From Mugil cephalus (taxonomy: Eukaryota > Chordata > Actinopteri > Mugiliformes > Mugilidae): DNA of 64,000 bases. The position numbers were made by a program, and so were the translations under genes. The stretch is taken from NCBI RefSeq assembly GCF_022458985.1, contig NC_061774.1, positions 21,794,697 through 21,858,696 of the forward strand. The letters are read 5' to 3'. This document shows positions 5,026-58,014 of this stretch, piece after piece. Below the pieces are notes generated by a model. The model was given only the letters and a program-made list of their open reading frames with translations, was not told the origin of the DNA and did not search any database. Positions within the stretch are counted from its first letter, which is position 1. Every line of letters starts with the position of its first letter.

Positions 5026-8000
5026 ATGAAACTCACTAAACGCTGGACACCACACAGGTGATAACCTCTCAACACGACACAAAGACTCCTACTGTTCTCT
5101 GTGTAGTGGCTACACAGACATCTGACTTGGTCTGTCCTGCCCTAAAAGCAGAACAGCCGTACCATTCATCCCTCATTAATCTCATTTCTCATGTGGGGCT
5201 TTTTGGGTTGAAAAATGCGCTAGTAGTGAAAAGAGATGCTTTATGGCAACATATAGAAAAGTCTTAAGAAGAACCACAGTCATGCTGATGCGTTGTTTGT
5301 TTCAGATGAACCTCTTTGTCATCCCTGACACGGTTCTTTCTGAAAACAGGTTCCTCCTGTTATGTCACGCACTCTCTTTACACATGTAAAGAATGAAGAA
5401 AGGCAACATTTTAATGACTAGCATACATGTCGTATGTTGCTGTGTGCTTTCCACTGAGTCCTCCACAGGAAGCACACTTTGGCTTGATATAAGAAAACAG
5501 GATATGGCAGCTTTACCATCTGTAGCTATTCTGTTGTTACTACCATCTTTCGTCTCACAGGATGTTGGCAAGCGTTATTTATAATGTAGTGTCACTTAAA
5601 ACGCCACATCTGTGTAGCATGCTCCTCTCAGTGTGCGTGATGTGTCTAATGTAGGTACTATTCTCTTTTCCCCATTTCTCTTCTAAAATCCCGTCTTCCT
5701 GTGCAAACATTGTAGAAGTTCCTACTCCAGGGTTTGGAATAAAATGTAGTTACTTTAATGTTAAAGAGCAAGGAGTATGGAGCTTAAAGTTTCCCTGGCT
5801 TGGGCCTGTCTCAGGGCTACTTCAAGATTAAGACTTGTGTCTCTGTAACAACAATCAAATAGTCTCATTTGTTTTCTTTCTAAATGCAAGAACTTTGCAT
5901 TTAATGCTGCTATATTACAAAAAAAATAAATAAAAAATTTATTCATATGCATACATTTGGCTACTACTTTCTTTAAGAGTCCCGCTGGACTCATGAATAT
6001 TAAGAAAGAGTAGAACTGTGCGGTCCTCTAAGTAAGGTTCCGGAGGTTGAGGTGATTTGCTGTAGGAGCCTCTAAAAAGCCATCTGAGCTAAGATCATAA
6101 CACAGCAGTGACAGATTTCCTTTGATCGTGCTTTGAGGGACTCATTACCGGAAGTGAATTGTGTACGATGGGGTGAGTGCTGGTAGCACAGTTTGGTGCA
6201 GCTTTGGTTTCCTTTACACATAAACCGATGAATATGGGGGAGAGGATAATCTGGAAGTTAATGTGAGGTGAGAAGGGAAATCACCACTCTTGCAATGACG
6301 ATCTTGAAATCAGCGTCTCTTTACTAAAGCAGAATCTCACACAACACAAGGTTGTGGGAGAGGAGCTCCCCGAACAGAAAATGAAACAATATTTAGTATT
6401 TCTACACAATGGTGGGTTATCTTCGAAAGTATCTTCAGTTGCAACTAGCAACAAGTAAGTTATTTATTCTCTGGAAGGAGGGAATAACTTTAAAATGATA
6501 CCAAGTCCTCTGACCTCCTGAACTCTCCTTGAACCGATTGGTTCTCTACAGAAACAAGGCACATATTTATGAATGAATACAACCTCTTTACTATGACCTA
6601 CTATTGTTCTATCAGTTAATAAATCACGTATCTCAGTTCTCAAAACTCAAAGCTCTTTGTACTTCTCTTCATCAGGCCCTGTAGAAAGCAGAGAGACTGT
6701 ATTCCCACATGATATAAATTCTCCAGTCCTCTACGTCTCTACACTAGCTGGGTTAACGTCGAGCCAAATATTCTGATTACAAACGGTTTAGATGCCCAAA
6801 CCAATGAAAATTCTCCATATAAACACCTCAACTGGAATGAACAAAAGTCATGTAAACTGAATCGTACAGAAGTCAGGCTCCACTCTCTCTGCACATGCTC
6901 TGCCTCGAGCCATTCAAAAGAAGAAGAAGACGAACGGTATGTTTTCATCGATCTGTGCATGTCACATGTCTGTAAAACAGCCATCTGATTAAAAGTAGTG
7001 CTACATCAGATTGTAAACATCAGATTGGAATAGATCACCTCACATGCAAACAGCTGACCTGAAACCTTCAGTCAGAATGATTTCTATCAGAATGAGAAAA
7101 AAGTCTCCATGTAAACCCAGCTACTGTGACCACGGTTTACATGCATTTGTCTTAAATGCTGTAATGCCAAAGCACAGTGATCACCTGTGGCCCCTCTCAT
7201 TACTTAACTTGTAGATCCAGTGCTTTAAAGGAGAAATGAAACATCCTCATACTGCAAACTATATACGGAATTACACTGTTGCTGTAGTAAAATATTAAAA
7301 AGGTGCTAAAATCAGAGATTTAAGAAGTTTATTTTTCATAGTTTCTTCATAGCTAGCTCGCTAGTGGCTCGCCATTTTGAAGTGACGTAATGGAATATAT
7401 CACAGGGTTGGTTGGGTCTCTCTGAGCACTGTTGGAAATGGACGTGGGTGAAATGGAAAGAGATCTTGAGCCTGCTAAAAATCCTATTAGATATGCTTTT
7501 GAACCAATGCAGCGTGGGAACTGAGCAGTGGTGCCGCTAAGAGTGGAAGAAGTGGTGAATACAGTGGTTTGGAGAGAAGAGCGTGTTGGCAACGCCACCG
7601 GGCGTCACAGTGGCTATTGTACAAAGATGCCACTGTTTCAGACCTGGACCTTTTACTCCGCGGTCTGTCCTGTATCAGCAGGGTGTCTACTTTTCACACT
7701 ATATGTCGGGAGGTGGACGCACTATTCGTCTTTCTCCAGCTCTCTCTTCTCTCTTTCACTGAGAGAAATAGGGATCACCAATCCAACCAAGACATGGCAG
7801 CACCCATGCTATGAAAAAACATGACGACCATTGTATTTTGTCTTGATGCGCTAACATCAGATGCTGTTTTTTTGACTGAATGCTTCGTTTCCCCCTTAAT
7901 TTGCATTTAGCGTTGGGACAGCGTTTATCTTTACCATCAATGTCAGTCAGCTGAATGAATGGTTGACGCGTAAGTTCATGCATTTCCATTTGGCCTTCCG

Positions 8001-11000
8001 TGAGCACGCAGTAACATCAGCATACCCAAATTAACAATGTAAGAGTTGATCTTAACACTTTTAAAGTGTCAATATGGGTCCACACCTCAGAGTGTTAATT
8101 TAACACTTTTTCGAGTGTTGGTACCTTTACACTAAGTTAGTGTAAATTTGACTCTTCTTGTAGTTAAATTTAACACACTGCCTAACACCAACCTCGATTT
8201 TTTTTTAATCGAGGTGAAGTTAGTTTGATATTGGATGTTCGGATATTCGACAGATAGTCAAAATAAATAGAATAGTTCTCCTTTGTAGTACCAACCACAC
8301 ACACCTTTTTTTTTTACACCCATTGTATGCACACTCTATTTTATATGATTTTTTTAAGGAAAAGACATTATTTTCTATAAGGAATGGTCTCTTTTTTTCA
8401 ATACCTCCCAAGTCATGTGACACCTGGCTTTTCCACAATATCCAACCAACTTCACTTCTGTGTTTTACCAACACTTTTATGTAGTGTTATCAATTAACTC
8501 TCAGAGGACTATTTCTTAACTACACAAGTGTTACCCCCGTAACACTTAAAAGGTGTCAATATAATTCTTATATAATCCTACAAAAAAATACTTGGAAAAT
8601 AGACTTTATTAAAATAAATAGGTAGTCATGTTTGGCAGTTCAAAAACATTTATTTTCAAACTTGCACCACAAATATTAGAACGTGCAACAGTAAAGGCAC
8701 GGTGTAGCGTTAGCACCACTTTAGCACGCTAGCGAGCAACTCCGAACCATTAGCATCATCTTATCACGTTTTACATCTATGGTAACAAAGTGCATGACTC
8801 GTGTCACTCAGCCAAAACGTCAGGCCAAACGTACCGTTTACTGCCGTTACTCACTTTCTATGTTACAGTGAGGCCAGGCGTGCGTGCTAACCTCCAGCTC
8901 ATTAAGCAGGTGTTCGGGTGGTTAGTAACAGCAAGACGAGTATAGTTTCCGTGGCTCACCGCTGCAAAATGACTTCGGGTGTCCGACGAGAAATGGGGGT
9001 GGGGGCCTTTAAATACAGGATCAGAGTTTAGAGGTAGAAGCTCGGAGTTAATGTTTAATATTTATATTTAAACATTTACACCTAGAGGTTTAATTTAGTG
9101 ACACTTCCTTTTTACACTCGCTTTTGACGACAACTATTTATTGACTGAGACTTAATTATAATGGGTTAACTCTACCCAGAGTATAATTAACTCTACTAGT
9201 GTATGTCTAGTTTAACACCAAGAATTCAACTCTTCTCAATTTGCTGTGCAGTATTCAAACTATAACATCTACCACTGGTCACTATTTATTTGTTCACGTT
9301 CTAAAACTCTACATGCTCAGCCTCTTTGCTGTTTGCCAGCTTGTTTCCTTTCATTGTTTCAAACACACTCTTCTCTTACTTAGTACTTCAAGATTAAGAC
9401 TTGTGTCTCTGTAATAACAATCAAATAGTCTCATTTGTTTTCTTTCTAAATGCAAGAACTTTGCATTTAATGCTGCTATATTACAAAAAAAATAAAAATT
9501 TATTCATATGCATACATTTGGCTACTACTTTCTTTAAGAGTCCCGCTGGACTCATGAATATTAAGAAAGAGTAGAACTGTGCGGTCCTCAGAGTAAGGTT
9601 CCGGAGGTTGAGGTGATTTGCTGTAGGAGCCTCTAAAAAGCCATCTGAGCTAAGATCATAACACAGCAGTGACAGATTTCCTTTGATCGTGCTTTGAGGG
9701 ACTCATTACCGGAAGTGAATTGTGTACAATGGGGTGAGCGCTGGTAGCACAGTTTGGTGCAGCTTTGGTTTCCTTTACACATAAACCGATGAATATGGGG
9801 GAGAGGATAATCTGGAAGTTAATGTGAGGTGAGAAGGGAAATCACCACTCTTGCAATGACGATCTTGAAATCAGCGTCTCTTTACTAAAGCAGAATCTCA
9901 CACAACACAAGGTTGTGGGAGAGGAGCTCCCCGAACAGAAAATGAAACAATATTTAGTATTTCTACACAATGGTGGGTTATCTTCGAAAGTATCTTCAGT
10001 TGCAACTAGCAACAAGTAAGTTATTTATTCTCTGGAAGGAGGGAATAACTTTAAAATGATACCAAGTCCTCTGACCTCCTGAACTCTCCTTGAACCGATT
10101 GGTTCTCTACAGAAACAAGGCACATATTTATGAATGAATACAACCTCTTTACTATGACCTACTATTGTTCTATCAGTTAATAAATCACGTATCTCAGTTC
10201 TCAAAACTTAAAGCTCTTTGTACTTCTCTTCATCAGCCCCTGTAGAAAGCAGAGAGACTGTATTCCCACATGATATAAATTCTCCAGTCCTCTACGTCTC
10301 TACACTAGCTGGGTTTACATCGAGCCAAATATTCCGATTACAAACGGTTTAGATGCCCAAACCAATGAAAATTCTCCATATAAACACCTCAACTGGAATG
10401 AACAAAAGTCATGTAAACTGAATCGTACAGAAGTCAGGCTCCACTCTCTCTGCACATGCTCTGCCTCGAGCCATTCAAAAGAAGAAGAAGACGAACGGTA
10501 TGTTTTCATCGATCTGTGCATGTCACATGTCTGTAAAACAGCCATCTGATTAAAAGTAGTGCTACATCAGATTGTAAACATCAGATTGGAATAGATCACC
10601 TCACATGCAAACAGCTGACCTGAAACCTTCAGTCAGAATGATTTCTATCAGAATGAGAAAAAAGTCTCCATGTAAACCCAGCTACTGTGACCACGGTTTA
10701 CATGCATCTGTCTTAAATGCTGTAATGCCAAAGCACAGTGATCACCTGTGGCCCCTCTCATTACTTAACTTGTAGATCCAGTCCTTAAAAGGAGAAATGA
10801 AACATCCTCGTACTGCAAACTATATACGGAATTACACTGTTGCTGTAGTAAAATATTAAAAAGGTGCTAAAATCAGAGATTTAAGAAGTTTATTTTTCAT
10901 AGTTTCTTCATAGCTAGCTCGCTAGTGGCTCGCCATTTTGAAGTGACGTAATGGAATATATCACAGGGTTGGTTGGGTCTCTCTGAGCACTGTTGGAAAT

Positions 11001-12945
11001 GGACGTGGGTGAAATGGAAAGAGATCTTGAGCCTGCTAAAAATCCTATTAGATATGCTTTTGAACCAATGCAGCGTGGGAACTGAGCAGTGGTGCCGCTA
11101 AGAGTGGAAGAAGTGGTGAATACAGTGGTTTGGAGAGAAGAGCGTGTTGGCAACGCCACCGGGCGTCACAGTGGCTATTGTACAAAGATGCCACTGTTTC
11201 AGACCTGGACCTTTTAATCTGCGGTCTGTCCTGTATCAGCAGGGTGTCTACTTTTCACATTATATGTCTTTCTCCAGCTCTCTCTTCTCTCTTTCACTGA
11301 GAGAAATAGGGATCACCAATCCAACCAAGACATGGCAGCACCCATGCTACGAAAAAACATGACGACCATTGTATTTTGTCTTGATGCGCTAACATCAGAT
11401 GCTGTTTTTTTGACTGAATGCTTCGTTTCCCCCTTAATTTGCATTTAGCGTTGGGACAGCGTTTATCTTTACCATCAATGTCAGTCAGCTGAATGATGAA
11501 TGAATGAATGAATGGTTGACGCGTAAGTTCATGCATTTCCATTTTGCCTTCCGTGAGCACGCAGTAACATCAGCATACCCAAATTAACAATGTAAGAGTT
11601 GATCTTAACACTTTTAAAGTGTCAATATGGGTCCACACCTCAGAGTGTTAATTTAACACTTTTTCGAGTGTTGGTACCTTTACACTAAGTTAGTGTAAAT
11701 TTGACTCTTCTTGTAGTTAAATTTAACACACTGCCTAACACCAACCAGTGTTTTTTTTTTTAACCGAGGTGAAGTTAGTTTGATATTGGATGTTCGGATA
11801 TTCGACAGACAGTCAAAGTAAGGAACTGTGTCTTTTTTTCCCAGTACCTCCTAAGCCATGTGGATGCAGAATAGTTCTCCTTTGTAGTACCAACCACACA
11901 CACCTTTTTTTTTACACCCATTGTATGCACACTCTATTTTATATGATTTTTTTAAGGAAAAGACATTATTTTCTATAAGGAATGGTCTCTTTTTTTCAAT
12001 ACCTCCCAAGTCATGTGACACCTGGCTTTTCCACAATATCCAACCAACTTCACTTCTGTGTTTTACCAACACTTTTATGTAGTGTTATCAATTAACTCTC
12101 AGAGGACTATTTCTTAACTACACAAGTGTTACCCCCGTAACACTTAAAAGGTGTCAATATAATTCTTATATAATCCTACAAAAAAATACTTGGAAAATAG
12201 ACTTTATTAAAATAAATAGGTAGTCATGTTTGGCAGTTCAAAAACATTTATTTTCAAACTTGCACCACAAATATTAGAACGTGCAACAGTAAAGGCACGG
12301 TGTAGCGTTAGCACCACTTTAGCACGCTAGCGAGCAACTCCGAACCATTAGCATCATCTTATCACGTTTTACATCTATGGTAACAAAGTGCATGACTCGT
12401 GTCACTCAGCCAAAACGTCAGGCCAAACGTACCGTTTACTGCCGTTACTCACTTTCTATGTTATAGTGAGGCCAGGCGTGCGTGCTAACCTCTAGCTCAT
12501 TAAGCAGGTGTTCGGGTGGTTAGTAACAGCACGACGAGTATAGTTTCCGTGGCTCACCGCTGCAAAATGACTTCGGGTGTCCGACGAGAAATGGGGGTGG
12601 GGGCCTTTAAATACAGGATCAGAGTTTAGAGTTAGAAGCTCGGAGTTAATGTTTAATATTAATATTTAAACATTTACACCTAGAGGTTTGATTTAGTGAC
12701 ACTTCCTTTTTACACTCGCTTTTGACAACAACTATTTATTGACTGAGACTTAATTATAATGGGTTAACTCTACCCAGAGTATAATTAACTCTACTAGTGT
12801 ATGTCTAGTTTAACACCAAGAATTCAACTCTTCTCAATTTGCTGTGCAGTATTCAAACTATAACATCTACCACTGGTCACTATTTATTTGTTCACGTTCT
12901 AAAACTCTACATGCTCAGCTTGTTTCCTTTCATTGTTTCAAACAC

Positions 12946-12986
<41 letters not shown>

Positions 12987-15900
12987 TAGGTGTAGGTGTG
13001 TGTTGTCACTGTTTGTGGTTTTAGGTTTGCTGTCTTTGGTGATGGTCTCTCTGCCACTGATGGAGACACAAACACCAAAACCTGTCGAGTGGCACGTCAG
13101 CCCTGCACATAGAAAGGTGAGTTTGATTTGGAGCACGGTGTTCAGGCTGTCAGGTTCACTGTGCTGTAACCAGAAAGTGAAGTTCGACAGTACAGTACAA
13201 ACATGGAAGCCGGCAAAGAGCAGAGAGTTGAGCTGGAGACAACCACCTGAACTGTCCCCTACAGCTCTATTTATTAGGCTGCTCAGCTTCATGTTACCGT
13301 CGTACTTTAATCCACAAGCAACACTGTACGCACTAGTTCTTTTCTCCCAGCATGTTCACTATCTGTAAATGGTTGTGCATTGAACTGTGAGCATGTATTC
13401 TGAGGTTACTAATGAGTGATTTGAATGATGAACTTACCAATTACAGATAACACAGTTTCATCACTTTTTTGTAATCTGTTTTAAATCTGCAGGGAAGGGA
13501 TATGTTTGTATTAGGCTTCTCAACAACTCTCAGCTCGGTTCATAACTCACACATAACTTCACACTGACAGACAGAAGCACCTGGCAGGGCTCTGGAGCTA
13601 AACATATCATTAAAAGGAATTTACTGAGGCTGTAAAGGTAACACTTCAGCTTTGACAGTCCCCCCAGCACCAGTAAATATTTAGCTATTTGGGAAATGTA
13701 AGCTTTAAAAATATAACTGCTTTAGTGGATCAGATTGTGCTAATATATGCAAAGAAATCAAATAGAAATTCACCAGCAGTGTCTTTCCTGTGAGAAGCTG
13801 CTGTTATAAATTATAAGCCTTTGATTGAATGGTAGTTATAACTGCTTAAATCATGTTGTTTTAACTGAAATGTGAAAGATAAGCTTCTACGTACCTAAAA
13901 TGTCACGTGTCCACGCCCTGTTCAGAGCTGCAGCACAGTTCTTATTATATACTAGGACACAAGCAGTATGTGGTGTGTTATCGTGGCCTGTTCATCTGAG
14001 CTGAGCTTGTTAGCAACACTGTCTGACAGAAAACCCCAAACTCCTGCTTCGCTGTAGATACTGTTGTATAGTACTGTTATAGTACTGTTATTACTGAAGC
14101 AGTAAAAACCAGTCACACATGTCTATAAACTTATGTTATCTGAAGGCACAATCTGATATTCATGTTTGAACCTGACAGTCTGTAGAAGTGATGCAGGTGG
14201 GGTTTGTATAACTAGTCACATTATAACATCAGTGCCTTAAAGCTAATAGGTTTTGTTGTTTGTTTTTGAACTGCAGCGAGTGCATGAACACGTGCACAGA
14301 GTTCTGGAGAGTCAGTGTCGTCCCAGCAGCAGCAGGCAAAGATTGACAGCTCATCTCCCTGCTTCCAGTTACGTTAAACAGCCCTTCCTGTGGAAGGATG
14401 AGCCCCTTCCTGATGACCTTTTCCTGTACCCACCCCCATTTGGGTTCAGGGGTCTTGAAGGCAAAGTAATGGAGCTACTTAAACTGGTGAATGCAACTTC
14501 TTTCTTTCTTTGATTCTGCTGTAATGTGGCTGTTGTTTAATAATCCCCGGCCGTGTGTTGTATTGTATGTGTGGTTACTTGAAATCTGTCCGTGCTTAAT
14601 ATCTTAATGCAGCTCTAGTCAGATACAACATCTACTAACAGTACAAATGACATCAGTAATATTACATTGTTGAAAAGTTATCAATAAGTTTATGAAGGGA
14701 AAATAACCATAGTACATGTAAGTGTGTTAACCCTGTGTGTCTTTTTTACTACAAACATGCAACACACATCACAGTAATACAGTGAGAATGTGAGAATGTG
14801 GCTCTTTAACATGTAAAAACAAGTCCTGTTCAGAGCATAAATGTAATGGTTGTATTTTCCTCTAAAGCTGCCAGCCTCAGACTCAGCCCCCCAGACTGAA
14901 AAGACATCAGGTAAATGTCACCGCTGTGTGGTCATAGGAAATGGAGGCATTCTCAAAGGCCTGGAGCTGGGCCCACTGATTGACCGCTTTGACACCATAA
15001 TCAGGTTAGACTTTATTAACTTCACACACAGTGTGATGGTCTTTGTCAGTGTTGCTTGGTGTATTCATGTCGAACAAGGAGCATGTCGGTTCAGATGATG
15101 TCTGTGCTCTGATTTATATTATGAGTTTATTGACATTGAATTGCACATTAATCAACACTGATGCGTTAGTCATCAGTATAAATGCGCCGGTCTTAGCACA
15201 GATGCTAATTTTCAGCCGTAGTCCCAAGGCAGCTACACAACACAGACAAAGAAGACTTTAAAACAACATTCATACAAAAGAATTACAGAACCAGACACGG
15301 ACAGACAGTGTCAACACAAGCCAAAAAGGACACAGACAGACAGAACAGACATGGCCCAAGAATCCAGAGAGCATACATCAGATAAGGAAAACTTTTAGGC
15401 TATGTGAGTGCATGTCTGGTTAATTTTTAACCAGTGTTTGAGATTTTTTTTTTTTAAAAAGTAAGCAGTTGTCACTGTTCTGGATGTGTGGTGGTAACTT
15501 GTTCCAGCTTTGTGTACCTCTTACTGATAAACTCGTTTGGGAAAATTCTGTTTTCCGCCTCAGTGCATTACAGTCACCTCTAGTTAGAGCTCTCGTTCTT
15601 CGTCCTTCAATGTTTTTTCTCTGAATGAATTCATTCATTCTTTGAAGATGAGACAGGTATCCATTAAGATTTGATAGCTATCTAGATCAAGAATATTATA
15701 CTTTTTTAGGATATTACAGTAATGATGATAACAGTCTGAGTGAAAGGCAGTGACTTTCTGGTCTGTGGTCCTTCAGGTTAAACAGAGGTCCTGTGGGAGA
15801 GTTTCATGTTGACGTTGGAACTCGAACCAGCATCAGGATGAGTTACCCAGAGGGTACACCTCTCCACTGGGCCGACACTGACCCACAATCCCTCTTTGTA

Positions 15901-17466
15901 GCTGTGGTGTATAAAGGTGTAGACATCAGCTGGATCTCTGCTATGATCAACAAGCTCAGTGTGGTGAGTAGTGGTCGACCTGATGAAACTAGACTTCATC
16001 TAATTTTAGAGATCCAACTGTGATTATTTAATTAAACATGAGTTCAGAGCTTTACTATATTATTTAAGAATAAGGTATTTTTCCCCAGGGGAAGATCCTG
16101 CAGACTTCTGTTCAGATCTCTCACAGTTGGCTTCAGTTCAGGAATCTAACTCCTGCCATTGTCACATGCAATCCTCTTAATGATCATGTGACGTTACTCT
16201 ACCAGCTAAAATGTTCTTCCTTCCTTTTCAGTATCCTCAAACTTTATCTTTATTTTACGGAGTTGCAACAAATTTCTGATGATTTCAGATGTGGTCTTTG
16301 ACTTTTATAAACCCCTGTAACTTTTGTATAAGAGAGATTTAGCAAATAATCAGTGCTTTTGACAAAGAGTTCTTTCTACAAACAAAGTTTTTCTTTGTGT
16401 TACAGCCTCTATGGGACTGGCTGTTCTTCTGGCAGAAGGTTCCAGATCAAATCCCTCTTGAGTCGCCCAGGTTCAGACTTCTAAACCCACATGTCATCAG
16501 AGAAACTGCATTGGACCTCCTGAAATACACTCCACCCAGACCACGTCTGTGGGGCTGGGACCAGGTAATAGACACGTCCTGTACCTTTAAATGTGTCTCT
16601 CTGTTCTCTCAGTCCTGTTGACCACTTAATTAACACAATGCAAACTGGGTAAAATGTTTAAACTGAAGGGCCAACACACTTTACGAAAGACAAACGCCGA
16701 CAGATCCACTGTATCAAACGTAAGCCTCCAAGCACATCGTTTGTGTAGTCGTGGCTCCATCTTGTGTTGGATGTTGGACATGTCAATACTGACAAGAATC
16801 AAGTCATACAGTCACAGAACGTAACGAGTGTCAGATGTCACTTTGGGTGAAGGTTTCTTTTGAGACAAGCGAGAAGAAACTTATCAAAGCCACGCTCACA
16901 GTCTAGGTGTGTGGGCAATGATATATTGTTGGCCTCAATAAATCCAGAAGCTTTGTCTCTTGGGCTAAACCTAGACCTAACCCCATGTTCAGTAGAAATA
17001 ACTTGCATGGACTGCTCTGTCTAAAGTGACAGAATGTCATATGTTTATATAATCTTATATTTTAAGTACAAAAACAGTTCACTTAAAAAATACAAGGATG
17101 ACAGGATTATAGAAACTAAAATGATTACTGTACATACTTAAGTTTGGAGCAGGATGAAGTCATGCACTGGGGGAAAATTAGTTTTGTGTGTTTGTTTTGT
17201 TTGTGCAGAATGTGCCGACCCTGGGCATTACTGCACTGAATGTAGCCAGTCTGCTGTGTGATGAGGTCAGCCTGGCAGGCTTTGGCTACAACCTGTCCCA
17301 GAGGGGGGCGCCACTGCACTACTACGACAACCTGCCTATGAGCGCCATGCTGAAGGAAAAGATGCACAATGTGGACAGAGAGACTCAACTCCTGCAAAGC
17401 CTCGTCAGAGAGGGAACCATCACTGACCTGACGGGGGGGATCCACTGCTCCTTCTGCCCCAGCTGA
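5026..17466 (+). CDS. st3gal5: st3gal5 copy A: lactosylceramide alpha-2,3-sialyltransferase (GM3 synthase), 7 coding exons, intact
   Basis: GM3 synthase transfers sialic acid from CMP-Neu5Ac to lactosylceramide in the Golgi, the first step to ganglio-series gangliosides. Coding exons: 5026-5057, 12996-13116, 14277-14486, 14868-15004, 15777-15963, 16406-16564, 17209-17466. All have GT-AG borders and compatible phases (1104 nt, 367 aa). Start: [11 protein letters not shown] gives a short basic cytosolic tail; exon 2 gives the signal anchor (about 12-33, [14 protein letters not shown]). Sialylmotif L is about 138-187 ([12 protein letters not shown]...RLN), split by an intron after R167. Motif S is about 286-309 ([12 protein letters not shown]), motif III is HYYD 319-322, and motif VS is H335-E340. 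C141 and C299 are the expected disulfide pair. Length fits ST3GAL5. The neighbour polr1a supports orthology. An alternative exon 2 acceptor at 12990 adds two residues in frame. Intron 1 is 7.9 kb because of a tandem duplication. Confidence 0.92.
6747..7121. mobile_element. MITE with GCTGGGTT terminal inverted repeats (unit 1)
   Basis: A 375-bp nonautonomous element. The left end begins GCTGGGTTAACGTCG (in unit 2 GCTGGGTTTACATCG) and the right end is CTCCATGTAAACCCAGC, an imperfect inverted repeat. Both sides are flanked by TA, compatible with a Tc1/mariner-type or other TA-targeting element. The interior is noncoding and partly self-complementary. The superfamily is not certain. Confidence 0.7.
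8022..9254. mobile_element. AGTGTTA/TAACACT-rich nonautonomous element, unit 1
   Basis: About 1.2 kb bounded by ATACCCAAATTA on the left and a degenerate GTAT end on the right, packed with AGTGTTA and TAACACT words in both orientations, especially in the outer 200-300 bp. A shorter relative lies at 56338-56934 in an unrelated position, and copies C and D have an uninterrupted version of this intron site, so it behaves as a mobile element. No coding capacity was seen. Confidence 0.6.
10308..10682. mobile_element. MITE with GCTGGGTT terminal inverted repeats (unit 2)
   Basis: Second copy of the 6747-7121 element, carried by the tandem duplication rather than inserted independently. Its left terminus, GCTGGGTTTACAT, is the better preserved one and pairs with ATGTAAACCCAGC at the right end. 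Confidence 0.7.
11575..12852. mobile_element. AGTGTTA/TAACACT-rich nonautonomous element, unit 2
   Basis: Copy of the 8022-9254 element carried in the second unit of the intron 1 duplication. It lies about 140 bp upstream of the exon 2 acceptor of copy A. Small differences, including an altered stretch near 11820-11880, separate the two copies. Confidence 0.6.
12950..12989 (+). repeat. GT microsatellite abutting the exon 2 splice acceptor of copy A
   Basis: A near-perfect (GT)n tract of about 30 bases runs straight into GGTGTGTGTAG, then GTGTAG, the acceptor(s) of exon 2. The same arrangement occurs in the other copies with very different tract lengths: short in B (25719-25732) and C (34660-34678), very long in D (57105-57177). 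The tract replaces a normal polypyrimidine tract. Confidence 0.85.
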
Positions 17467-18260: not shown

Positions 18261-19446
18261 CAAGATGTAAAATTTATAAACTAAAATGTGCATTTGACAC
18301 TGTCGTCCAGGACGTTTACTCTTATTGGAGTCAGAGATGCTGAAGATTTGCTTTTTTTTTGTTTTTTTGCTTCTTTTGTTGGATTTAAAATGTGCATATT
18401 ATGTGGATTAATGCATTATTACACACAGAGCGAATGAGTGAATTCACAAGGTGATTATTGTTACTTACCAGAGGTGGCGAGGAGGTGGAGGACGCAATCT
18501 GCTACCTGCTCCACTTCTATCTATCTGTCTATCTATCTATCTATCTAACTAACTAACTAATCATTACCCAGACTTCATATTTGTGTCGCATTGAGGACGC
18601 TACAGCCTCCGTCCAGCAGGTATCGCTATAAGCTTTTCACACTGAATGAAAACAATTAAACAATACTATAAATAGTTATTACTAAATTTCTTAATTTCCC
18701 ACTGGCAACAATACTTGCCACACTTTTTTTTTTTTTTTTTTAACCCTTTTTAACCTAAGTTTGACTTTGGGTAGCTAATCAAAAGTTTTAAAATGAAAGA
18801 ATATGGTGTCTCCTATAATTTATATCAATATCACATAGCTAGTGTGAATGGTCACATCAGTAGGCCTCTTTACTTACGGCCTGCACCTCCGGAAGGAAAT
18901 GTCCGCCTCTAACTTTTACTTAATGTAAGGGTATATAACTAAAATATTTTCAACATGCATACTTAAAAGGGTCTACTACTGATATATGATGTGAACTATA
19001 TGCCTTTGTGAATTTTTGCTTATAAGAAGAGTAAATATAAGCAGGGCAACGTTTGCTGCCGCTTGCATAAAACATAGTCATGCCAAGTGTTATGCCAAGT
19101 TTTATGATAGGATGGGTTTTAGGTGTTTATTCTGTATTAGTTTTTTTTTTTTTCTACACAACCCCAAAGGGATTTACAATATCACTTGATACTAGTGATT
19201 TCCCCACAATAGACTACCAAGCTGAATAAGAAGATGCCCAGAGGTTCACAGCCCACAGCGCAATAAAGGGATTAAGGGATTAAAGGAATAAAGGGATTGT
19301 TGCCGACTATATAACCTACTTTTTTCACTAAAACAACCAACATGAAATTTAAAAAATCATACATTTCATGTACTAGGGAGGTCTGAGGTATGAGATGCAT
19401 GCACTTATTTTGCAGGGGAAAAATGGGATTAAACGGGTTGAGAACG
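18261..19446. other. Intergenic DNA after copy A; simple repeats only
   Basis: Noncoding. Contains an ATCT tetranucleotide repeat with AACT repeats at about 18520-18560, T-rich runs near 18725 and 19140, and no gene or recognisable transposon. The segment shared with the flank of copy C starts at about 19447. Confidence 0.5.
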
Positions 19447-20071
19447 TATTTTTAAATGGTAGGTATGTTATCTTGAAGCCTGCTTTCCGAAACTGAATTT
19501 ATCAATATTTCTTGTCACTCACTGAGTCAACGCTTCATTCTGATATAAATTTTATGATTTTATTACGATGACTTTATGGATTTATAGTTCCGTACACGTT
19601 GATTAAACAATGAATACCGTGAAAACTAGAACGAGGAGATGAAATGAATATTTGTCATGACAAACAGTGGATTTTCAAATCATTCAAAGCATGTATTACA
19701 TCCATCCGCTATATTACAACATTTGATCACCTCTATTAATTTCATTCACTAAACTAGAGTTTGGCACAACCTAAAAAAATGAACTCGTGTAACCTGTTAG
19801 TCCAATCAAAATACGCCGCTTAATACAATTATAAACACAAACACAGTTACTGAACCAATAACGTTATATTCAAGCTCTTGTGGTATCTTAGGAACAGAAC
19901 CGAAACTTGTAAACATCCCAGCGCAAACTGTCCAGCTCATAGACGGTAATGTAATCCAAGGGGTCTATGATTATAATTATGAAATTAACGTTTCACACCA
20001 CAAACCATTCGGTTTTCATTTTTATCATAAACAAACTTAACCCAGAGTAAAGTAATATTATTTACCGTGTG

Positions 20072-20130
20072 GACCCTTGACCATTACTGTTAATGACCGT
20101 TAACGACCGTTAATGACCGTTAATATTCTA
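20072..20130. repeat. TTAATGACCG / CGGTCGTTAA minisatellite
   Basis: Four or so tandem copies of a 10-12 base unit, GACCGTTAAC / GACCGTTAAT. The mirror copy in arm 2 is at about 40980-41030. Confidence 0.85.
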
Positions 20131-20801
20131 CATTCTTATTTTGCGCGAGCCGCGCTGCTTCCGCTATACGGACAACAACATCAGGTTTGGGGATTAACGT
20201 TTTTTTTTTTTTTGGCGTTAGTTTGCCCAAAAGTTTGAAAATATTGTGAAATATTTGAGGGGCGGGGATTAGCAGTAGGCAAAACATCTCAAATGCTATA
20301 GCTTGTTAGCATATTTCCACGGACTGTTTAGGCGAGAATGGACGAAAATTCACATTTTAGAGAATATAGGCTACTAATACACTCAGTGTTATTTTAAAAA
20401 GGTTGACTGACTGATGGTAATGTTCACCCAGGGTCGGCTCTAGCTAATTTAGTGATCAAAAGATAAAATACAATGAGACTAAATTAAAGTAAAACAAAAA
20501 TTAGTATTAGCTAGCAAACAATAGTGTAATCAAAAAAATTACAGAATTAGCATCATGAACATAGCTATGTACAAAAGAAGTTGGCAAAACAGTGTCCAAG
20601 GTGATGTGGTTGTTTGGCCAGGTGCATGACAACATCGACATGGATCGCACAAAGGGCAAAAACAACCAAATGCCATTTTGACTGGTTCAAGTCACAGAAA
20701 AAACAAGTCAGACAAAAAAAAAGCTTTTAACACGCTGAGATTAACATCATGCAGCCACTCTTTCAAGCGCGTTGTTGATGATTGTCTCACTACAACTCAA
20801 C

Positions 20802-20935
20802 GGGGCAGCAATGGCTCAGTAGGTAGCGCGGGTTTACCACGACCAGAAGTGTTAGCTGTTCGATCCCGGTGCCTCCAGCTAACATTGTGGCGTCACAGTG
20901 ACGAAGGCCTCTATTGACTCCGTGCCTCCCATGAC
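20802..20935 (+). repeat. tRNA-derived SINE head
   Basis: GGGGCAGCAATGGCTCAGTA at 20802 followed by GTTCGATCCCGGTGC at about 20858 has the spacing and sequence of pol III A and B boxes and resembles the tRNA-like head of common teleost SINEs. The region between and after does not fold into a functional tRNA as far as can be seen by eye, and no CCA or anticodon arm is convincing. It is a SINE fragment, not a tRNA gene. Confidence 0.65.
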
Positions 20936-20954
20936 AAGTCATTTCAAGATTTAA

Positions 20955-21321
20955 AAGCCAGACTGGATATGTGTTGCAGTTGTAATTCAGTGTTGCCCAG
21001 ACAAAAAGAGCATTTCAGATATCCACAACTACATTCTTCCTAGGACAAATGACGTCACGTTTGCCATTCGTGTGTATGGGGGTTGTCATTACAGATATCT
21101 ACAATTGAGTTGCCGCTATGTGAATTGCGGATATCTGTAACTGAATTAGGACTAGTAGTAATTCAATTTTGAGATGTCATAGTCATAATTCCAGCTCAAG
21201 ATATCTTTAATTCGCCTCAATTAAGGATATCTACATGACTACGTGAGAGATATCTGAAATGCTCTTTTTGACTAGGCAAAACTGAATTACAGATATCTGC
21301 AACACATATCCAGTCTGGCTT
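20955..21321. mobile_element. Foldback MITE with long inverted termini
   Basis: The left arm AAGCCAGACTGGATATGTGT is exactly complementary to the right end ACACATATCCAGTCTGGCTT, and complementarity continues for about 70 bases through GCATTTCAGATATC with small gaps. The interior repeats AGATATC(T)-type words, which are themselves palindromic. No coding sequence. This is a foldback or MITE-type DNA element; its superfamily was not identified. Confidence 0.8.
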
Positions 21322-21780
21322 TCAAATGTTAAAATGGTTTTCCATATGCCTCCTCCTTGCTGTATTTACCTAAACATCAAATCACTCTGTGACAGTATTT
21401 TCTCACCATTCACAGGCCGTTTTCCAAGTCCATTCAAATATCTGGCATTTTAAAAAAAACATGCTTAAGTATGATCTTTTGGTACTGTTATACAAAACAG
21501 CTTCAACTGCTATGTACTAGAGTAACCCCTTATTTGGAAAAGTGGATTAGCCTATGCTAACGCTAAGAGCTTTACCGAGAAGTAACATCAGTCAAACAAT
21601 ACTGTAGTTTCCAACTGGATGTTAAAAAGATGACGAGAAGTGATCACAAACATTTCGTTTATGGTTTTATTGTTTTATTGTTGGAACTGAAATAGTTAGG
21701 CTACTGTCGGCTGTATCTTTGCCAAAACAACATCGATAAACTTATCTGATAGCCCTCCAGTCCTTCAAAAAAAATACAGC
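21322..21780. other. Repeat-arm DNA without a recognised gene
   Basis: Noncoding stretch shared in inverted form with 40030-40200 and 63670-63880. Nothing beyond the shared arm sequence was recognised. Confidence 0.4.
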
Positions 21781-22010
21781 TTACATTAATATTACTTGAC
21801 ACGAAATGTGAACCACAACACCAGGTTTCAGTGTCTGGATTCCATTGTTTCTTCATAATGCAGCGATCCATTTACTTCTCTTTTCACCTGTGTGTGTTGC
21901 AGCAGCTGCAACTGGTGGAGGAAGGATTATGACCTGTGCTTTAACTTGTGTTTCACTCCTGCAGTAAGAATGCACGACCAGGTCAAGATGAATATTTTAA
22001 AATCGACACA
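21781..22010 (-). pseudogene. THAP-like zinc finger remnant (arm 1)
   Basis: Minus-strand counterpart of the better preserved copies at 39803-40000 and 63446-63657. It is more decayed and rearranged than those. It is listed because it marks the same position in each duplicated arm; on its own it would not be recognisable as a THAP domain. Confidence 0.35.
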
Positions 22011-22195
22011 GCGTTCAAGCTCACCTGCTATTATTCTATATTAGTAGTAGCAGAACAAAGTGTCTGTACAAAAACACAGAGTTAAAGATTTTTATGATGT
22101 TTCTTGCTTTGAGGTGCCAGAGTCTCCAGTAAGTCATGAATTATGTAATATGACTCTGTGTTAGGTGTGAAAACATGCTGTAAGAATGCTTTCAT

Positions 22196-22562: not shown

Positions 22563-22565
22563 ACT

Positions 22566-23699: not shown

Positions 23700-23739
<40 letters not shown>

Positions 23740-40000: not shown

Positions 40001-40975
40001 AAATTTAAGCTGTATTTTTTGAAGAGCTGGAGGGCTGTCAGATAAGTTTAAGGATGTTGTTTTGGCGTAGTTACGGCCGACAGTAGTCTAACTATTTCAG
40101 TTCCAACAATAAAACAATAAAACAGTAAACGGAATGTTTGTGATCACTTCTCGTCATCTTTTTAACATCCAGATGGACGCTGCAGTATTCTTTGGCTACG
40201 TTACTCATGTTACTTACAGCCAGGAGAAGGCACACAGTCAATAAAATCATAAAATTTATATCACTACGAAGCATGGACTCAATGTCTGACAAGAAGTAGT
40301 TATAAAATCAACTACAGAAACCAGGCTACGTCATATTGAATCATTATTTGGGGGATTTTTGTTACTGGTTAGTGCTAATGCTAACCGCTAGCCAATGCAA
40401 TGTTAGTTGTATATTTCAGGGGTGTCCAAGCATTTACTACGTTACTCTCCACAGTGGGTCTGCTTACTTCTTGTAATATCTTTGTTGGAGAGGCTTCACT
40501 TCAAAAAAACAGACCAGACTTCATCCCCTCTGTGTCCTCCTTAGGTCAAATCGTCCATCCAGTGAGTGAGAGTTTAGGGGTCGTTGAATATATATTACCA
40601 TCAGTCAGAGTCAACCTTTTAAAATAACACTTGCGTTCTTGGAGAGTAAGTGTATTTGTATATTCTCTAAAATGTGTGTTTTGCATGTCCATTCTTGCCA
40701 AGAATGTCTGTTGAAATATGCTAACAGGCTATAGCATTTGAGATGTTTTGTCTCCAGCTAATCCCCGCCCCTCAAATACGTCACACTGTTTACAAACTGT
40801 GAAGGGGTCCACTGTTCTCTAATAACACTTGAATTACAGTACGTTAACAGGCTTTTTTCGAATTTTGACAAAATAATTCCAAAAAATAACAATTCCAAAA
40901 CCCGATGTTGTTGACCGTAGACCGAAAGCGCGCAAAATAAGAATGTAGAATGGAGAGCAGGAGAGAGATATTAAC
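40001..40975. other. Arm 2 noncoding DNA
   Basis: Shared with arm 1 in inverted form (19.5-21.7 kb). The open frame at 40400-40627 has no recognisable domain. No gene assigned. Confidence 0.4.
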
Positions 40976-41036
40976 AGTAGCTAATTAACGGTCATTAACG
41001 GTCGTTAACGGTCGTTAACAGTAACGGTCAAGGGTG
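40976..41036. repeat. CGGTCGTTAA minisatellite (arm 2)
   Basis: Tandem units GGTCATTAAC / GGTCGTTAAC / GGTCGTTAAC, mirror image of 20072-20130. Confirms the inverted relation of the arms. Confidence 0.85.
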
Positions 41037-41606
41037 CACACAGTAAATAATATTACTTTACTCTGGGTTAAGTTTGTTTGTGATGAAAATAATACCGAAT
41101 GGTTTGTGGTGTGAAACATTCATTTCATAATAATAATAGATTGTTCGGATTACATTACTGTCTATGAGCTAGACAGCTTGCGCTGGGATGTTAACAAATT
41201 TTTGTTCCGTTCCTAAGATACTACAAGAGTACCAGATTACTTGAGTTCATTTTTTAGGTTGTGCCAAACTTTAGTTTAGGGAAAGAAATTAAGGGAGGTT
41301 ATCAAATATTGTAATATAGTCTAACTGAGTTGGATGTAATACATGCTTTGAATGATTGGAAAATCCACTGTCTGTCATGACAAATATTCATTGAGACTGT
41401 CTTCTCCTCGTTTTAGTTTTCATGGTATTTAATGAAGATGTTTCATCAATGTGTACAGAAGAATAAATCCATTAAGTCATCATAATAAAACCATAAAATT
41501 TATATCTGTATAAAGCGTGGACTCAGTGACTGACAAGAAGTACTTATAAATTCAACTTCGGGAAGCAGGCTTCAAGATAGAATACCTACCATTTAAAAAT
41601 ACGTTC

Positions 41607-46480: not shown

Positions 46481-46513
<33 letters not shown>

Positions 46514-50401: not shown

Positions 50402-50620
50402 CTCTCAGTCCTGTTGATCCTTTAATTAACACAATGCAAACTGGGTAAAATGTGCAGTATTTTTTTATTTTTTTTTAAATGTGTTTAAAGTGAAGGGCCA
50501 ACACACTTTAAGAAAGACAAACGCAGACAGATCCACTGTATCAAACGTAAGCCTCCAAGCACATCGTTTGTGTAGTCATGGCTCCATCTTGTGTTAGATG
50601 TTGGACATGTCAATACTGAC
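50402..50620 (+). pseudogene. st3gal5: Remnant of a fifth st3gal5 copy (intron 6 piece only)
   Basis: CTCTCAGTCCTGTTGA through CATGTCAATACTGAC matches intron 6 of copy A at about 16609-16792 in the same + orientation, with one small T-rich insertion. It has no exon. It joins the LINE at 50621 without a gap, so it is the leftover of a + strand copy whose other parts were lost. Confidence 0.85.
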
Positions 50621-51935
50621 TGAGAGTTATCTTAAGATAAAGTCATTGATATATCTTTGTATCTTTAAGAAACAGGGTTACTAAGGACATCAGAGCAGCT
50701 AAATCTAACTTCTTCATAAATCTCCTGCACGACACTAAAGGAAATCATTGGCAAATCTGTGATTGTCTACAGAAGTTAACTGGGAAATGTCATAATACAA
50801 CAAAGCAATTGGAGACCATTCATAATGGAACCTTATGGAAGACACCAGTAGAAACAGCAACTCTTTTTAACAACCACTATGTTAATTCTGTGAAGTTGAT
50901 TATAAATAGTCCTCAGGCTACTCCCCTATATTCTTTACCAGTTCTCTTTAACCGAAGTGTTTGAATCCAAGGTCACCTCTATAATCACCTCTATTAAGAA
51001 TTCCAAATCAAAAGACATTTTTGGACTAGATGCGTTGCTTTTGAAGAAGCATGCTGCCACTCTCACAGGTCCAATTACTAACGTAATTAATGCCTCAATA
51101 AAGAAGGGTAAATACCTTCAGATTTGGAAATCAGCCATTTTTGTACCTGTTCAGGCGACACAATGGACATGAATAACTATAGTATTATAGTATTTTACCG
51201 GTCATGTCTAAACCCCCCCCCCCCCGTCCTAGGGCCTGTTCTGTTTAGTCTATACATAAATGACCCTACCATCAATTTGCTCAGGATGTGAGGTTCAGAT
51301 GTATGCTGATGATACAGTAATTTATGTTCATGCACAAACTAAGGCACAAGCTGCTACCACGCTCAGTGACACCATGGTACATGTTCAAAAATGGCTGGTT
51401 GATTCACAACTATACCTTAATGTTAAGAAGACAGACAGAATTCACACCCCCTCCATACACACACACACACAAACGCAAAGCCATGGTTTTTCTATTTCTT
51501 TGCGCAGTTTGTCTCTTGCTTTTTGGGATGCTTTCTTGGCTGCTAAATCAATAAAATGAAAGCATGGAATACATAGAAAGGGCATCATTAGTTTTACAGA
51601 TTAGTAGTTACATATACATAAGGTTGCAGTAACTGACCACCATGGCTTTGCGTTTGTGTGTGTGTGTGTGTACGGAGGGGGTTTGAATTCAGTCTTAAAA
51701 ACAGTTAACCACAAATGTGCATGTCTTAGGAGCTACTACAATAATCAGAACATATATAAAGCAGCGCTTTTAAACAAGCTATCATAATTAAAACCAAGCA
51801 CTATTTCTACCCATATATTTCCCTCACTGTGGCTTGCACTGCATCTTGAATGTCACTGTCAGGAGTATGTGGAGGGGTTAGAGGGGTTCTTTTCTGTCTT
51901 TCTTTAGACTTCCTCTCACTCAGGTCATTGATTGA
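50621..51935 (+). mobile_element. Second copy of the LINE
   Basis: Near-identical to parts of 28831-31975, but without the nested Tc1 (empty site near 50908) and with an internal deletion of about 300 bp whose junction is a 13-base C run at about 51212-51225. It keeps the MYADDTVIYV box (about 51299-51328) and the same foldback in its tail (51436-51700). 5' and 3' limits are approximate. Confidence 0.85.
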
Positions 51936-52678: not shown

Positions 52679-55600
52679 TCAGCTGGGGCAGAAGGAGCAG
52701 TGGATCCCCCCCGTCAGGTCAGTGATGGTTCCCTCTCTGACGAGGCTTTGCAAGAGTTGAGTCTCTCTGTCCACATTGTGCGACGTCTGCTGCAGCATGG
52801 CGCTCATAGGCAGGTGGTCGTAGTAGTGCAGTGGCGCCCCCCTCTGGGTCAGATTATAGCCAAAGCCTGCCAGGCTGACCTCATCACACAGCAGACTGGC
52901 TACATTCAGTGCAATAACGCCCAGGGTCGGCACATTCTGCACAAACAAAACAAACACACAAAACTTGTTGCCAGTAGCTCTGTGAAGAATAACAATTTAA
53001 GGTTATTCTTATTGTGTTAATGGTTGTTTTTTGTGCATTGAACCAATCAAAATGGCTTTTGGTCGTGTTTTATCTTTTTGTGCTGTTTTTATTTTGTCCA
53101 TTGGAGTTTACATCCCTCCCTCAGCGACAAGGACAAGGAAACACCATGTGACATGATTCATGCCGCTGTTGCTATGCAACTGGCCAAACAACCACATCAC
53201 CTTGCCACCTACTTTTTTTTTGTATATTTGATCATAATGCTAATTTGATTAAATTTGAATACACTGTTTGTTTTTATTTTACTTACTTTATTCATTAACC
53301 ACACACCTAGACTGTGAACGTGGCTTTGATAAGTTTCTTCTCGCTTGTCTCAAAAGAAACCTTCACCTAAAGCTACATCTGACACTCTACGTCTGTGACT
53401 GTATGACTTGATTCTTGTCAGTATTGACATGTCCAACATCTAACACAAGATGGAGCCACGACTACACAAACGATGTGCTTGGAGGCTGACGTTTGATACA
53501 GTGGTTCTGTCGGCGTTTGTCTTTCGTAAAGTGTGTTGGCTCTTCAGTTTAAACATTTTAAATTGCACATTTTACCCAGTTTGCATTGTGTTAATTAAGT
53601 GGTCAACAGGACAGAGAGACATTTAAAGGTACAGGACGTGTCTATTACCTGGTCCCAGCCCCACTTAGGTGGTCTGGGTGGAGTGTATTTCAGGAGGTCG
53701 AATGCAGTTTCTCTGACGACATGTGGGTTTAGAAGTCTGAACCTGGGCGGCTCAAGAGGGATTTGATCTGGAACCTTCTGCCAGAAGTGCCGCAAGTCCT
53801 GCAGGGGCTGCAACACAAAGAACAACTTTGTTTGTAGAAACTACTCTTTCTCAAAAGCACTGGCTGAAGTTTGGGAATATTGAAAAGGAAGGAAGTATAT
53901 ATTTTAGCTGTCAGAGTAACGTCACATGATCATTAAGAGGATTGCATGTGACAATGGCAGGAGTTAAATTCCTGAACTGAAGCCAACTGTGAGAGATCTG
54001 AACAGAAGTCTGCAGGATCTTCCCCTGGGGGAAAATACCTGATTCTTAAAAAATATAGTAAATCTCTACAAAAACAACACAACTATGATCCAACAACAGA
54101 ATCTGAAACCGGACTCAGGCTCAGGACATTTTGTATCTAAGAAGTATCATTGTTCAGTTGGTCTGAACTCATGTCTAATTACATAATCACAGTTGGATCT
54201 CTAAAATTAGATGAAGTCTGGTTTCATCAGGTCGACCACTACTCACCACACTGAGCTTGTTGATCATAGCAGAGATCCAGCTGATGTCTACACCTTTAAA
54301 CACCACAGCTGCAAACAGGGATTGTGGGTCAGTGTCGGCCCAGTGATGAGGTGTACCCTCTGGGTAACTCATCCTGATGCTGGTTCGATTTCCAACGTCA
54401 ACATGAAACTCTCCCACAGGACCTCTGTTTAACCTGAAGGACCACAGACCAAAGAGTCACTGCCGTTCATTCAGACTGTTATCACCAGAGCACAGACATC
54501 ATCTGAACCGACATGCTCCTTGTTCGACATGAATACACCAAGCAACACTGACAAAGACCATCACACTGTGTGTGAAGTTAATAAAGTCTAACCTGATTAT
54601 GGTGTCAAAGCGGTCAATCAGTAGGCCCAGCTCCAGGCCTTTGAGAATGCCTCCATTTCCTATGACCACACAGCGGTGACATTTACCTGATGTCTTTTCT
54701 GTCTGGGGGGCTGAGTCTGAGGCTGGCAGCTTTAGAGGAAAATACAACCATTACATTTATGCTCTGAACAGGACTTGTTTTCACATGTTAAAGAACCACA
54801 ATCTCACTGTATTAGTGTGATGTGTGTTGCATGTTTGTAGTAAAAAAGACACACAGGGTTAACACACTTACATGTACTATGGTTATTTTCCCTTCATAAA
54901 CTTATTGATAACTTTTCAACAATGTAATATTACTGATGTCATTCGTACTGTTAGTAGATGTTGTATCTGACTAGAGCTGCATTAAGATATTAAGCACGGA
55001 CAGATTTCAAGTAACCACACATACAATACAACACACGGTCGGGGATTATTAAACAACAGCCACATTACAGCAGAATCAAAGAAAGAAAGAAGTTGCATTC
55101 ACCAGCTTAAGTAGCTCCATTACTTTGCCTTCAAGGCCCCTGAACCCAAATGGCGGTGGGTACAGGAAAAGGTCATCAGGAAGGGGCTCATCCTTCCACA
55201 GGAAGGGCTGTTTAACGTAACTGGAAGCAGGGAGATGAGCTGCCAATCTTTGCCTGCTGCTGCTGGGACGACACTGACTCTCCAGAACTCTGTGCACGTG
55301 TTCATGCACTCGCTGTAGTTCAAAAACAAACAACAAAACCTATTAGCTTTAGGGCACTGATGTTATAATGTGACTAGTTATACAAAACCCCCCCTGCATC
55401 ACTTCTACAGACTGTCGGGTTCAAACATTAATATCAGATTGTGCCTTCAGATAACATAAGTTTATAGACATGCGTGACTGGTTTTTACTGCTTCAGTATA
55501 CATACTACAACAGTACTATACAACAGTATCTGCAGCGAAGCAGGAGTTTGGGGTTTTCTGTCAGACAGTGTTGCTAACAAGCTCAGCTCAGATGAACAGG

Positions 55601-57119
55601 CCACGATAACACACCACATACTGCTTGTGTCCTAGTATTATAATAAGAACTGTGCTGCAGCTCTGAACAGGGCGTGGACACGTGACATTTTAGGTACGTA
55701 GAAGCTTATCTTTCACATTTCAGTTAAAACAACATGATTTAAGCAGTTATAACTACCATTCAATCAAAGGCTTATAATTTATAACAGCAGCTTCTCACAG
55801 GAAAGACACTGCTGGTGAATTTCTATATTTGAGTTCTTCGCATATATTAGCACAATCTGATCCACTAAAGCAGTTATATTTTTAAAGCTTACATTTCCAA
55901 ATAGCTAAATATTTACTGGTGCCGGGGGGACTGTCAAAGCTGAAGTGTACAGCCTCAGTAAATTCCTTTTAATTATATGTTTACCTTCAGAGCCCTGCCA
56001 GGTGCTTCTGTCACAGTTCAATATTACAATTTATAGATAGTGAACATGCTGGGAGAAAAGAACTAGTGTGTACAGTATTGCTTTTGGATTAGAATACGAC
56101 GGTAATATGAAGCTGAGCAGCCTAATAAATAGAGCTCTAGGGGACAAGGACCTTGCAAGTGGCCAGTGGGCCCAATTTGTTGATATGTATACATATTTTT
56201 TATTCACATTCCTTAGTGACATGCTATTGCTTTTATAAAAGGGCTGTGTGGGCTATCGGGTCCATGGTACTGATTGTTATTGGGAGTGTGTGTGGTTCTT
56301 TTTTTTTTCTTTCACAGTACTGCATGGTAAAATGAGTATACCCAAATTAATTAAGAGTTGATTTTAACACTTTTAAAGTGTCAATATGGTTCCACACCTC
56401 AGAGTGTTAATTTAACACTTTTTCGAGTGTTGGTACCTTTACACTAAGTTAGTGTAAATTTGACTCTTCTTGTAGTTAAATTTAACACTGCCTAACATCA
56501 ACCAGTGTTAGTTTTTAACACTTTTATGTAGTGTTAGCAATTAACTCTCTCAGAGGACTATTTCTTAACGACACAAGTGTTACCCCCATAACACTTAAAA
56601 GGTGTCAATATAATTCTTATATGATCCTACAAAACATACTTTAATAAAATAAACTTCACTAAAGGGGAGGCGTTAACACTTGGGTTGTTAAATACAGGAT
56701 CAGAGTTTAGAGTAAGAAGCTCGGAATTAATGTTTAATATTAATATTTAAACATTTACACCTAGAGGTTTGATTTAGTGACACTTCCTTTTTACACTCGC
56801 TTCTGACGACAACTATTTATTGACTGAGACTTAATTATAATGGATTAACTCTACCCAGAGTATAATTAACTCTACTAGTGTATGTCTAGTTTAACACCAA
56901 GAATTCAACTCTTCTCAGTTTGCTGTGTGGGTATTCAATAGAGTCGTATAGTACAGCCTGAACACCGTGCTCCAAATTAAACTCACCTTTTGTGCAGGGC
57001 TGAGGTGCCACTCGAAAGGTTCTAGTATTTCTGTCTCCATCAATGGCAGAGAGACCATCACTAAAAACACCAAACCTAAAACCAGAAACAGTGACAACAC
57101 ACACCTACACACACACACA

Positions 57120-57179
<60 letters not shown>

Positions 57180-58014
57180 AGGGGGTGGTTTGAAACAATC
57201 TGGCAAAGAAGCGGAGCATTTAGAGTTTTATAAAGTGAACAAATAAACAGTGACAGTAACAAGTGGTAGATGTTATAGTTTGAATACTGCTTGTTGAATG
57301 CAAAAGGGAAATGCATGAATTTCCGTGTCAATCATTCATTCAACTGACTGGCGTTGATGGTAACGATAAAGCTGTCCAAACGCTAAATGTAAATTAAATA
57401 GGAAAAGAAGCAAATAAACAGCATTTCATAAGTGAAATCAAAGTGGGTGCTCTAATAGCTCAGTCTGTTACATGAAATAGCCACACACTGCAACTCTTCT
57501 ATGTAGATTTGGCTTCCTCAAAATAAAACAAAACAAAAAATCCCAATGCCACGTCATGTCACTGGCAGCTACAGAGAGTGAAGCCACCATCTTCACATGT
57601 AAAACCAAAGTGAAAGCTGCAGTTTACTATGTGTGTGCTCGTTGGTAAAAATGTTGCCTATTCTTATTTTTTACATATGTAAAGAGAGAGTATGAGATAA
57701 TAGGAGGAACCTGTTTTTTACAAAGAATCTTGTTAGAGATGATAAAAGGTTCATCTGAAATAAACAGCTCGTCAGCATGACTGTACTTCTTCTTAAGACT
57801 TTTCTATATGTTGCCATAAAGCATCTCTTTTCACTACTAGCGTGTAGTAAAAAAAAAAGCCACATGATCTTAAAAGAAATGAGATCAATGAGAGATGAAT
57901 GATACGGCTGTTCTGCTTTTAGGGCAGGACAGAGTAAATCAGTCTCGTGTCGTGTCTTTGTGTCGTGTTGAGAGATTATCACCTGTGTGGTGTCCAGCGT
58001 TTGATAAGTTTCAT
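52679..58014 (-). CDS. st3gal5: st3gal5 copy D: GM3 synthase-like sialyltransferase, 7 coding exons, intact frame
   Basis: Minus strand exons 58014-57983, 57104-56987, 55312-55103, 54729-54593, 54433-54247, 53807-53649, 52936-52679. All GT-AG borders and phases hold (1101 nt, 366 aa). Exon 2 is one codon shorter than in copy A (PAQK instead of PAHRK). Signal anchor about 12-33; motif L ([16 protein letters not shown]), motif S ([12 protein letters not shown]), HYYD and HNVDRE are intact, as are the two conserved Cys. Differences from copy A cluster in exon 6 ([10 protein letters not shown] for [10 protein letters not shown]) and include GLLID for GPLID in motif L. Intron 2 carries an AGTGTTA-rich element, and a GT tract of about 70 bases abuts the exon 2 acceptor. 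No copy-A-type promoter exists upstream, so expression is uncertain; it may be a young retained duplicate or an unexpressed copy. Confidence 0.85.
56338..56934. mobile_element. AGTGTTA/TAACACT-rich element in intron 2 of copy D
   Basis: 597 bp bounded by ATACCCA and TGGGTAT inverted termini, a shorter version (internal deletion) of the 8022-9254 element. It lies in a different intron and in the opposite orientation relative to the gene than in copy A, so it is an independent insertion. Confidence 0.7.
57105..57180 (-). repeat. Long GT tract at the exon 2 acceptor of copy D
   Basis: On the + strand about 70 bases of CA with one CAGACA interruption; on the gene strand GT repeats lead into CTGTGTGTGTGTGTAG, the exon 2 acceptor. 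Confidence 0.9.

Follow-up and report, generated by a model that had tools for sequence, protein, structure and literature searches.

The GM3 synthase gene st3gal5 controls entry into ganglioside synthesis. Young segmental duplications are known in which gene conversion takes place and intact copies stand beside dead ones. Sections of Teppa et al. 2016 (PMC5000683) list one st3gal5 in fish, state that sialyltransferase duplicates from the teleost genome doubling were almost all lost, and describe lineage-specific small-scale sialyltransferase duplicates carrying the suffix A, B, C or D. Here we analysed a 64-kb window, i.e. the whole stretch of Mugil cephalus DNA under study (64,000 nucleotides), which holds four st3gal5 copies of seven-exon layout between 5026 and 58014, two on the plus strand (A, B) and two on the minus strand (C, D).

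Compared with ST3GAL5/st3gal5 as described (lactosylceramide alpha-2,3-sialyltransferase, GT29), the locus has the same domain, the polr1a synteny of copy A and 64-81% identity of A to its relatives except the Mugil protein P0001 (best 120 of 476 matches), but four local copies are present where those sections of PMC5000683 give one in fish. Like the small-scale duplicates described there, the copies are recent, local and found in one lineage; unlike them, the Mugil case concerns st3gal5, is arranged in both inverted and direct order, and likely involves sequence exchange. Its inverted pair, junction transposons and patchwork identity are shared with young segmental duplications, from which it shows no difference in principle. 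The cluster adds a case to the known phenomenon of local gene amplification with decay. Our literature search found no paper on st3gal5 amplification in Mugil cephalus, and the literature on Mugil cephalus and gangliosides, judged by title and abstract start, contained nothing relevant. Most probably, a segment with st3gal5 was amplified in the Mugil lineage specifically, giving one main gene, A, and decaying copies that have exchanged sequence. Of the copies, A alone seems complete and evidently under selective constraint. The coding features are as follows.

about 286..386, plus strand: final coding exon of polr1a, which is the neighbour of A by synteny
1894..1901, plus strand: coding end of exon 0 of A, the probable long-form start, ATGGAAGG followed by a GTAAGT donor
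5026..17466, plus strand: copy A, seven coding exons, open, 367 aa
5026-5057, 12996-13116, 14277-14486, 14868-15004, plus strand: exons 1-4 of A
15777-15963, 16406-16564, 17209-17466, plus strand: exons 5-7 of A
25005..28693, plus strand: copy B, with about 25 nt of exon 6 left (27960-27984)
25005-25036, 25735-25855, 26432-26641, 27034-27170, 27330-27516, 28436-28693, plus strand: exons of B
31998..35455, minus strand: copy C with seven exons, the third of which has an 11-bp deletion that creates a stop at 34119-34117
52679..58014, minus strand: copy D, seven exons, open, 366 aa
58014-57983, 57104-56987, 55312-55103, 54729-54593, minus strand: exons 1-4 of D
54433-54247, 53807-53649, 52936-52679, minus strand: exons 5-7 of D

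Self-comparison, exon search and splice-site models agree on these four copies, and the outer limits, 5026 on the plus strand and 58014 on the minus strand, are the start ATGs of A and D. An earlier note on this DNA, made from its letters, had placed the copies there with the same gene identity and orientations, and had described A and D as full reading frames; all of this was correct. Both frames run through their seven exons without a stop, and each intron is bounded by GT and AG. Two pieces of A match the Pfam family Glyco_transf_29 (GT29 sialyltransferase, E 2.2e-32 and 1.6e-21), and the top match of A is the Mugil cephalus protein P0001, which is identical to it from the membrane segment to the C-terminal end. 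Among the best 120 of 476 matches, relatives named by their source are nearly all called lactosylceramide alpha-2,3-sialyltransferase or st3gal5. The few exceptions are labelled hypothetical, uncharacterized or unnamed, and lgn-only matches are nameless. Thus domain, P0001 and the names of relatives identify the gene as st3gal5, and A is st3gal5 by domain, relatives' names and synteny, with a predicted activity on lactosylceramide. Segments that we take to be sialylmotifs L, S, III and VS, with their presumed borders, were found by eye in the sequences of A, B and D.

The polr1a exon, first spotted by eye, aligns over 32 residues with the C-terminus of human RPA1, and 29 of them are identical. 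Copy A follows just downstream on the same strand. The adjacency to polr1a proposed earlier thus holds, for A only among the copies; polr1a/st3gal5 is presumably the human gene order as well. Pfam scans of the flanks and spacers found no polr1a. The exon 0 candidate is the single match of a loose pattern in 1-12990. P0001 carries an N-terminal extension that begins MEGTTSLKARGL, the first codons of which fit the candidate and its donor, and similar extensions occur in other fish sequences, e.g. P0002. Similarity of A to B, C and D starts near 4600, within the intron that follows exon 0, and a search of 1-4599 against the window found no counterpart of 1600-1901 elsewhere in it. Hence B, C and D are without exon 0 and the native 5′ region within the window, and A alone keeps both as far as the window shows. 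Synteny and the upstream exon point to A as the ancestral GM3 synthase gene, its function being predicted from sequence.

Intron 1 of A consists mostly of a 3.6-kb tandem duplication (5818-9371 and 9384-12950, 96.1% alike), in which one reading frame, 7503-7814, gave no Pfam match. A structure-sequence search with one frame of 1-4700 returned just two cytochrome b562 fusion chains, both weak.

Among the best 120 of 476 matches, inspected by eye, five species have two protein clusters and Mugil is the sole one with a distinct second copy. The pairs of the other four are isoform-like (95.8-100% over the main match, among the matches listed), and as clusters were built at 90% identity, young copies in other species could be hidden. 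The non-coding layout of the locus is given below.

19442..28833, plus strand: B unit, inverted against the C unit
29051..31885, plus strand: remnant between B and C that includes a reverse-transcriptase-like piece (below the Pfam cut-off)
29659-30324, minus strand: Tc1-type element splitting this remnant, transposase match above the Pfam cut-off
31998..41606, minus strand: C unit, inverse of the B unit and in the same orientation as the D unit
41607-50400: spacer from C to the scrap, without long counterpart elsewhere in the window
50402..50620, plus strand: scrap of intron 6 in B orientation, 82% alike to that intron of A and 86% to that of D
50623..51818, plus strand: same remnant as in the B-C spacer, between the scrap and D

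The intron-6 scrap is the fifth intron fragment of the earlier note, found again here. Its succession of scrap, remnant and D mirrors that of B, remnant and C, so in the simplest history an inverted pair would have been copied once more, and of D's partner only the scrap would remain. Accordingly to this layout, a segment that begins in the intron following exon 0 and ends shortly beyond the final exon would have been copied next door among transposons and multiplied as an inverted pair with B facing C, and duplication of the pair would have given D and the scrap of its partner. Sequence would then have been exchanged among the copies, as the identity patchwork supports, while a frameshift killed C and a deletion deprived B of exon 6. 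D, with its open frame, near-neutral change outside exons 3-5 and lack of A's native 5′ region, would most likely be a late-stage decaying copy.

The patchwork is apparent in non-coding blocks. Divergence of A from the other copies is 11-22% in the flank and intron 1; between A and D it is only 1.6-3.4% in introns 2-4, and between A and B it is 0-1.8% in introns 3-4 and 9.8% in intron 2 (over 287 alignable sites). In the four-copy permutation set, identical tracts exceeded expectation (uncorrected p) for B-D (<0.0002), A-B (0.0016), C-D (0.007), A-D (0.020) and A-C (0.029), and were not significant for B-C (0.21). In three-copy sets, uncorrected p was <0.0002 for A-C, and for A-D 0.005 in the set A, B, D and not significant in the set A, C, D (0.14). 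A runs test for mosaicism, made on 35 sites that split the copies two against two, did not reach significance (1131 of 10000 shuffles). With moderate confidence, we interpret the patchwork as gene conversion among the copies. Under such conversion, D may owe its clean exons 3-5 to sequence received from A rather than to selection on D, and the open frame of D becomes weak evidence of function. The locus thus illustrates a way in which a copy that is not needed could retain intact-looking exons through conversion.

The earlier note also raised a retained second active copy, and of this the open frame of D stands. D has no stop, keeps all splice sites and the motif residues of exon 7, and its single coding indel is in frame. 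It could therefore be a second working st3gal5 that took a new promoter from its transposon-rich 5′ flank and was kept for dosage or for a shifted activity, which we regard as possible though rather doubtful. Against it, D is without A's exon 0 and native 5′ region (its flank has no exon 0 counterpart inside the window), and change between A and D is near neutral outside exons 3-5, which may themselves be copied from A. The dN/dS check between A and D suggested earlier was run by the Nei-Gojobori method on copy pairs and gave a divided answer, i.e. 0.72 overall, about 0.99 for exons 1, 2, 6 and 7 pooled, and 0.31 for exons 3-5, the last of which would favour a working D. Over the whole coding sequence, 38 replacement and 16 silent differences show no departure from neutral (p 0.18), while exons 3-5, with 6 and 6, do depart from it (p 0.04). 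Clean exons 3-5 in this pair mean either selection or copying from A; they are seen in the dead C and the cut B as well, which argues against a working D. The other pairs gave 1.09 (C-D), 0.40 (A-B), 0.67 (A-C), 0.52 (B-D) and 0.53 (B-C), and the values near 0.5 even in B-C and B-D, pairs without A, count against the reading of one main gene with decaying copies.

The distribution of changes between A and D is uneven. Residue differences (n = 34, that is 36 minus two gap-edge residues) were placed against 118 fish sequences, including isoforms and unnamed ones, and 25 fell on D, 8 on A and 1 was a tie (p 0.005). At 8 of the 34 it is D that has the commoner fish residue, so A has changed too. 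A tree was built from 40 rows, of which other fish supplied 35; the Mugil copies group together in one clade (100/100), and the path from the clade node is 0.016 for A, 0.059 for B and 0.107 for D. Exon 6 carries 12 replacement and 2 silent differences in A-D, and 0 and 1 in A-C. Phe236, kept in 118 of 118 compared sequences, is lost in D, which speaks against a working enzyme; D is also changed at Trp232, Trp234 and Leu235 (kept in 107, 97 and 92 of 118), which are its neighbours in one predicted helix. This exon-6 helix reads Trp-x-Trp-Leu-Phe in most of the compared fish, versus Gln-x-Leu-Arg-His in D.

Small coding indels between A and D are few, 1 versus about 6-8 predicted from the intron ratio (p 0.003-0.017), a point in favour of a working D. 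As proof of selection on D, this shortage was rejected, since comparable shortages occur in A-C (p 0.037), where C is dead, and in A-B (p 0.024), where B is cut; hence the coding-indel count does not discriminate. Intron 2 of D contains at 56688-56938 a 250-bp piece of A intron 1 (9009-9258 and 12607-12856, about 96%), reversed relative to the gene and perhaps a mobile element or a small inversion.

A further reading, which we consider quite unlikely, is that D is expressed and diverging, with a remodelled exon-6 helix that would change acceptor use and catalytic exons 3-5 refreshed by conversion from A. If true, mullets would make gangliosides with a duplicated, partly remodelled gateway enzyme. 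The recent cluster comprises a main copy, an open fast-changing copy, an exon-deleted copy and a dead copy, a natural series for asking if extra GM3 synthase is tolerated, silenced or remodelled.

B and C had both been called pseudogenes. C is indeed broken, as the 11-bp deletion in its exon 3 leads to the in-frame stop, whereas B is open when exon 6 is skipped. In B, about 306 bp that A has are deleted, which truncates exon 6; when complete, this exon is 159 nt long and lies between two phase-0 junctions, so the frame survives its loss, leaving an open 314-aa frame. The Mugil cephalus protein P0015 (350 aa) contains this exon-6-less product letter for letter, thus B is annotated as a protein by a public source, and that annotation is worth checking. 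Such a protein, if expressed, might bind partners or compete with A, and the open skipped frame and the exact product in P0015 agree with this. Annotation pipelines can, however, build such gene models from homology alone. Moreover, in the AlphaFold model of P0001 (mean pLDDT 75), the exon-6 part forms a strand (285-288) with one helix before it (264-269) and one after it (290-300); as B lacks this predicted helix-strand-helix, its product is probably inactive and probably does not fold as the enzyme. We therefore hold an expressed exon-6-less B protein to be very unlikely.

An artefact of assembly or of haplotypes as the source of the additional copies is barely credible: these copies are known from one assembly, but they diverge by up to 22% in non-coding blocks and lie in an inverted layout with unique spacers between them, and contigs of the public Mugil cephalus assembly were built, as given in part of PMC9247318, from PacBio reads over 30 kb. 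From P0001 and P0015, the window appears to be part of that assembly, and part of PMC12382950 presents an independent Mugil cephalus nanopore assembly. Chance resemblance and two alleles were both ruled out: differences between copies range over 0-22%, according to the pair and the non-coding block compared, and with two of them inverted they are too different to be alleles.

Other mobile sequences were met in the window. Upstream of C, retroelement fragments on the minus strand (36441-38109) comprise an integrase zinc-binding domain and a reverse transcriptase, and the Pfam scans of flanks and spacers gave a single match to a reverse transcriptase, located in 41600-45999 on the minus strand, in the spacer from C to the scrap. 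The upstream part of the B unit matches that of D up to 63888. At 63324-64000 the D upstream unit is still B-like near the window end, and further copies may lie beyond.
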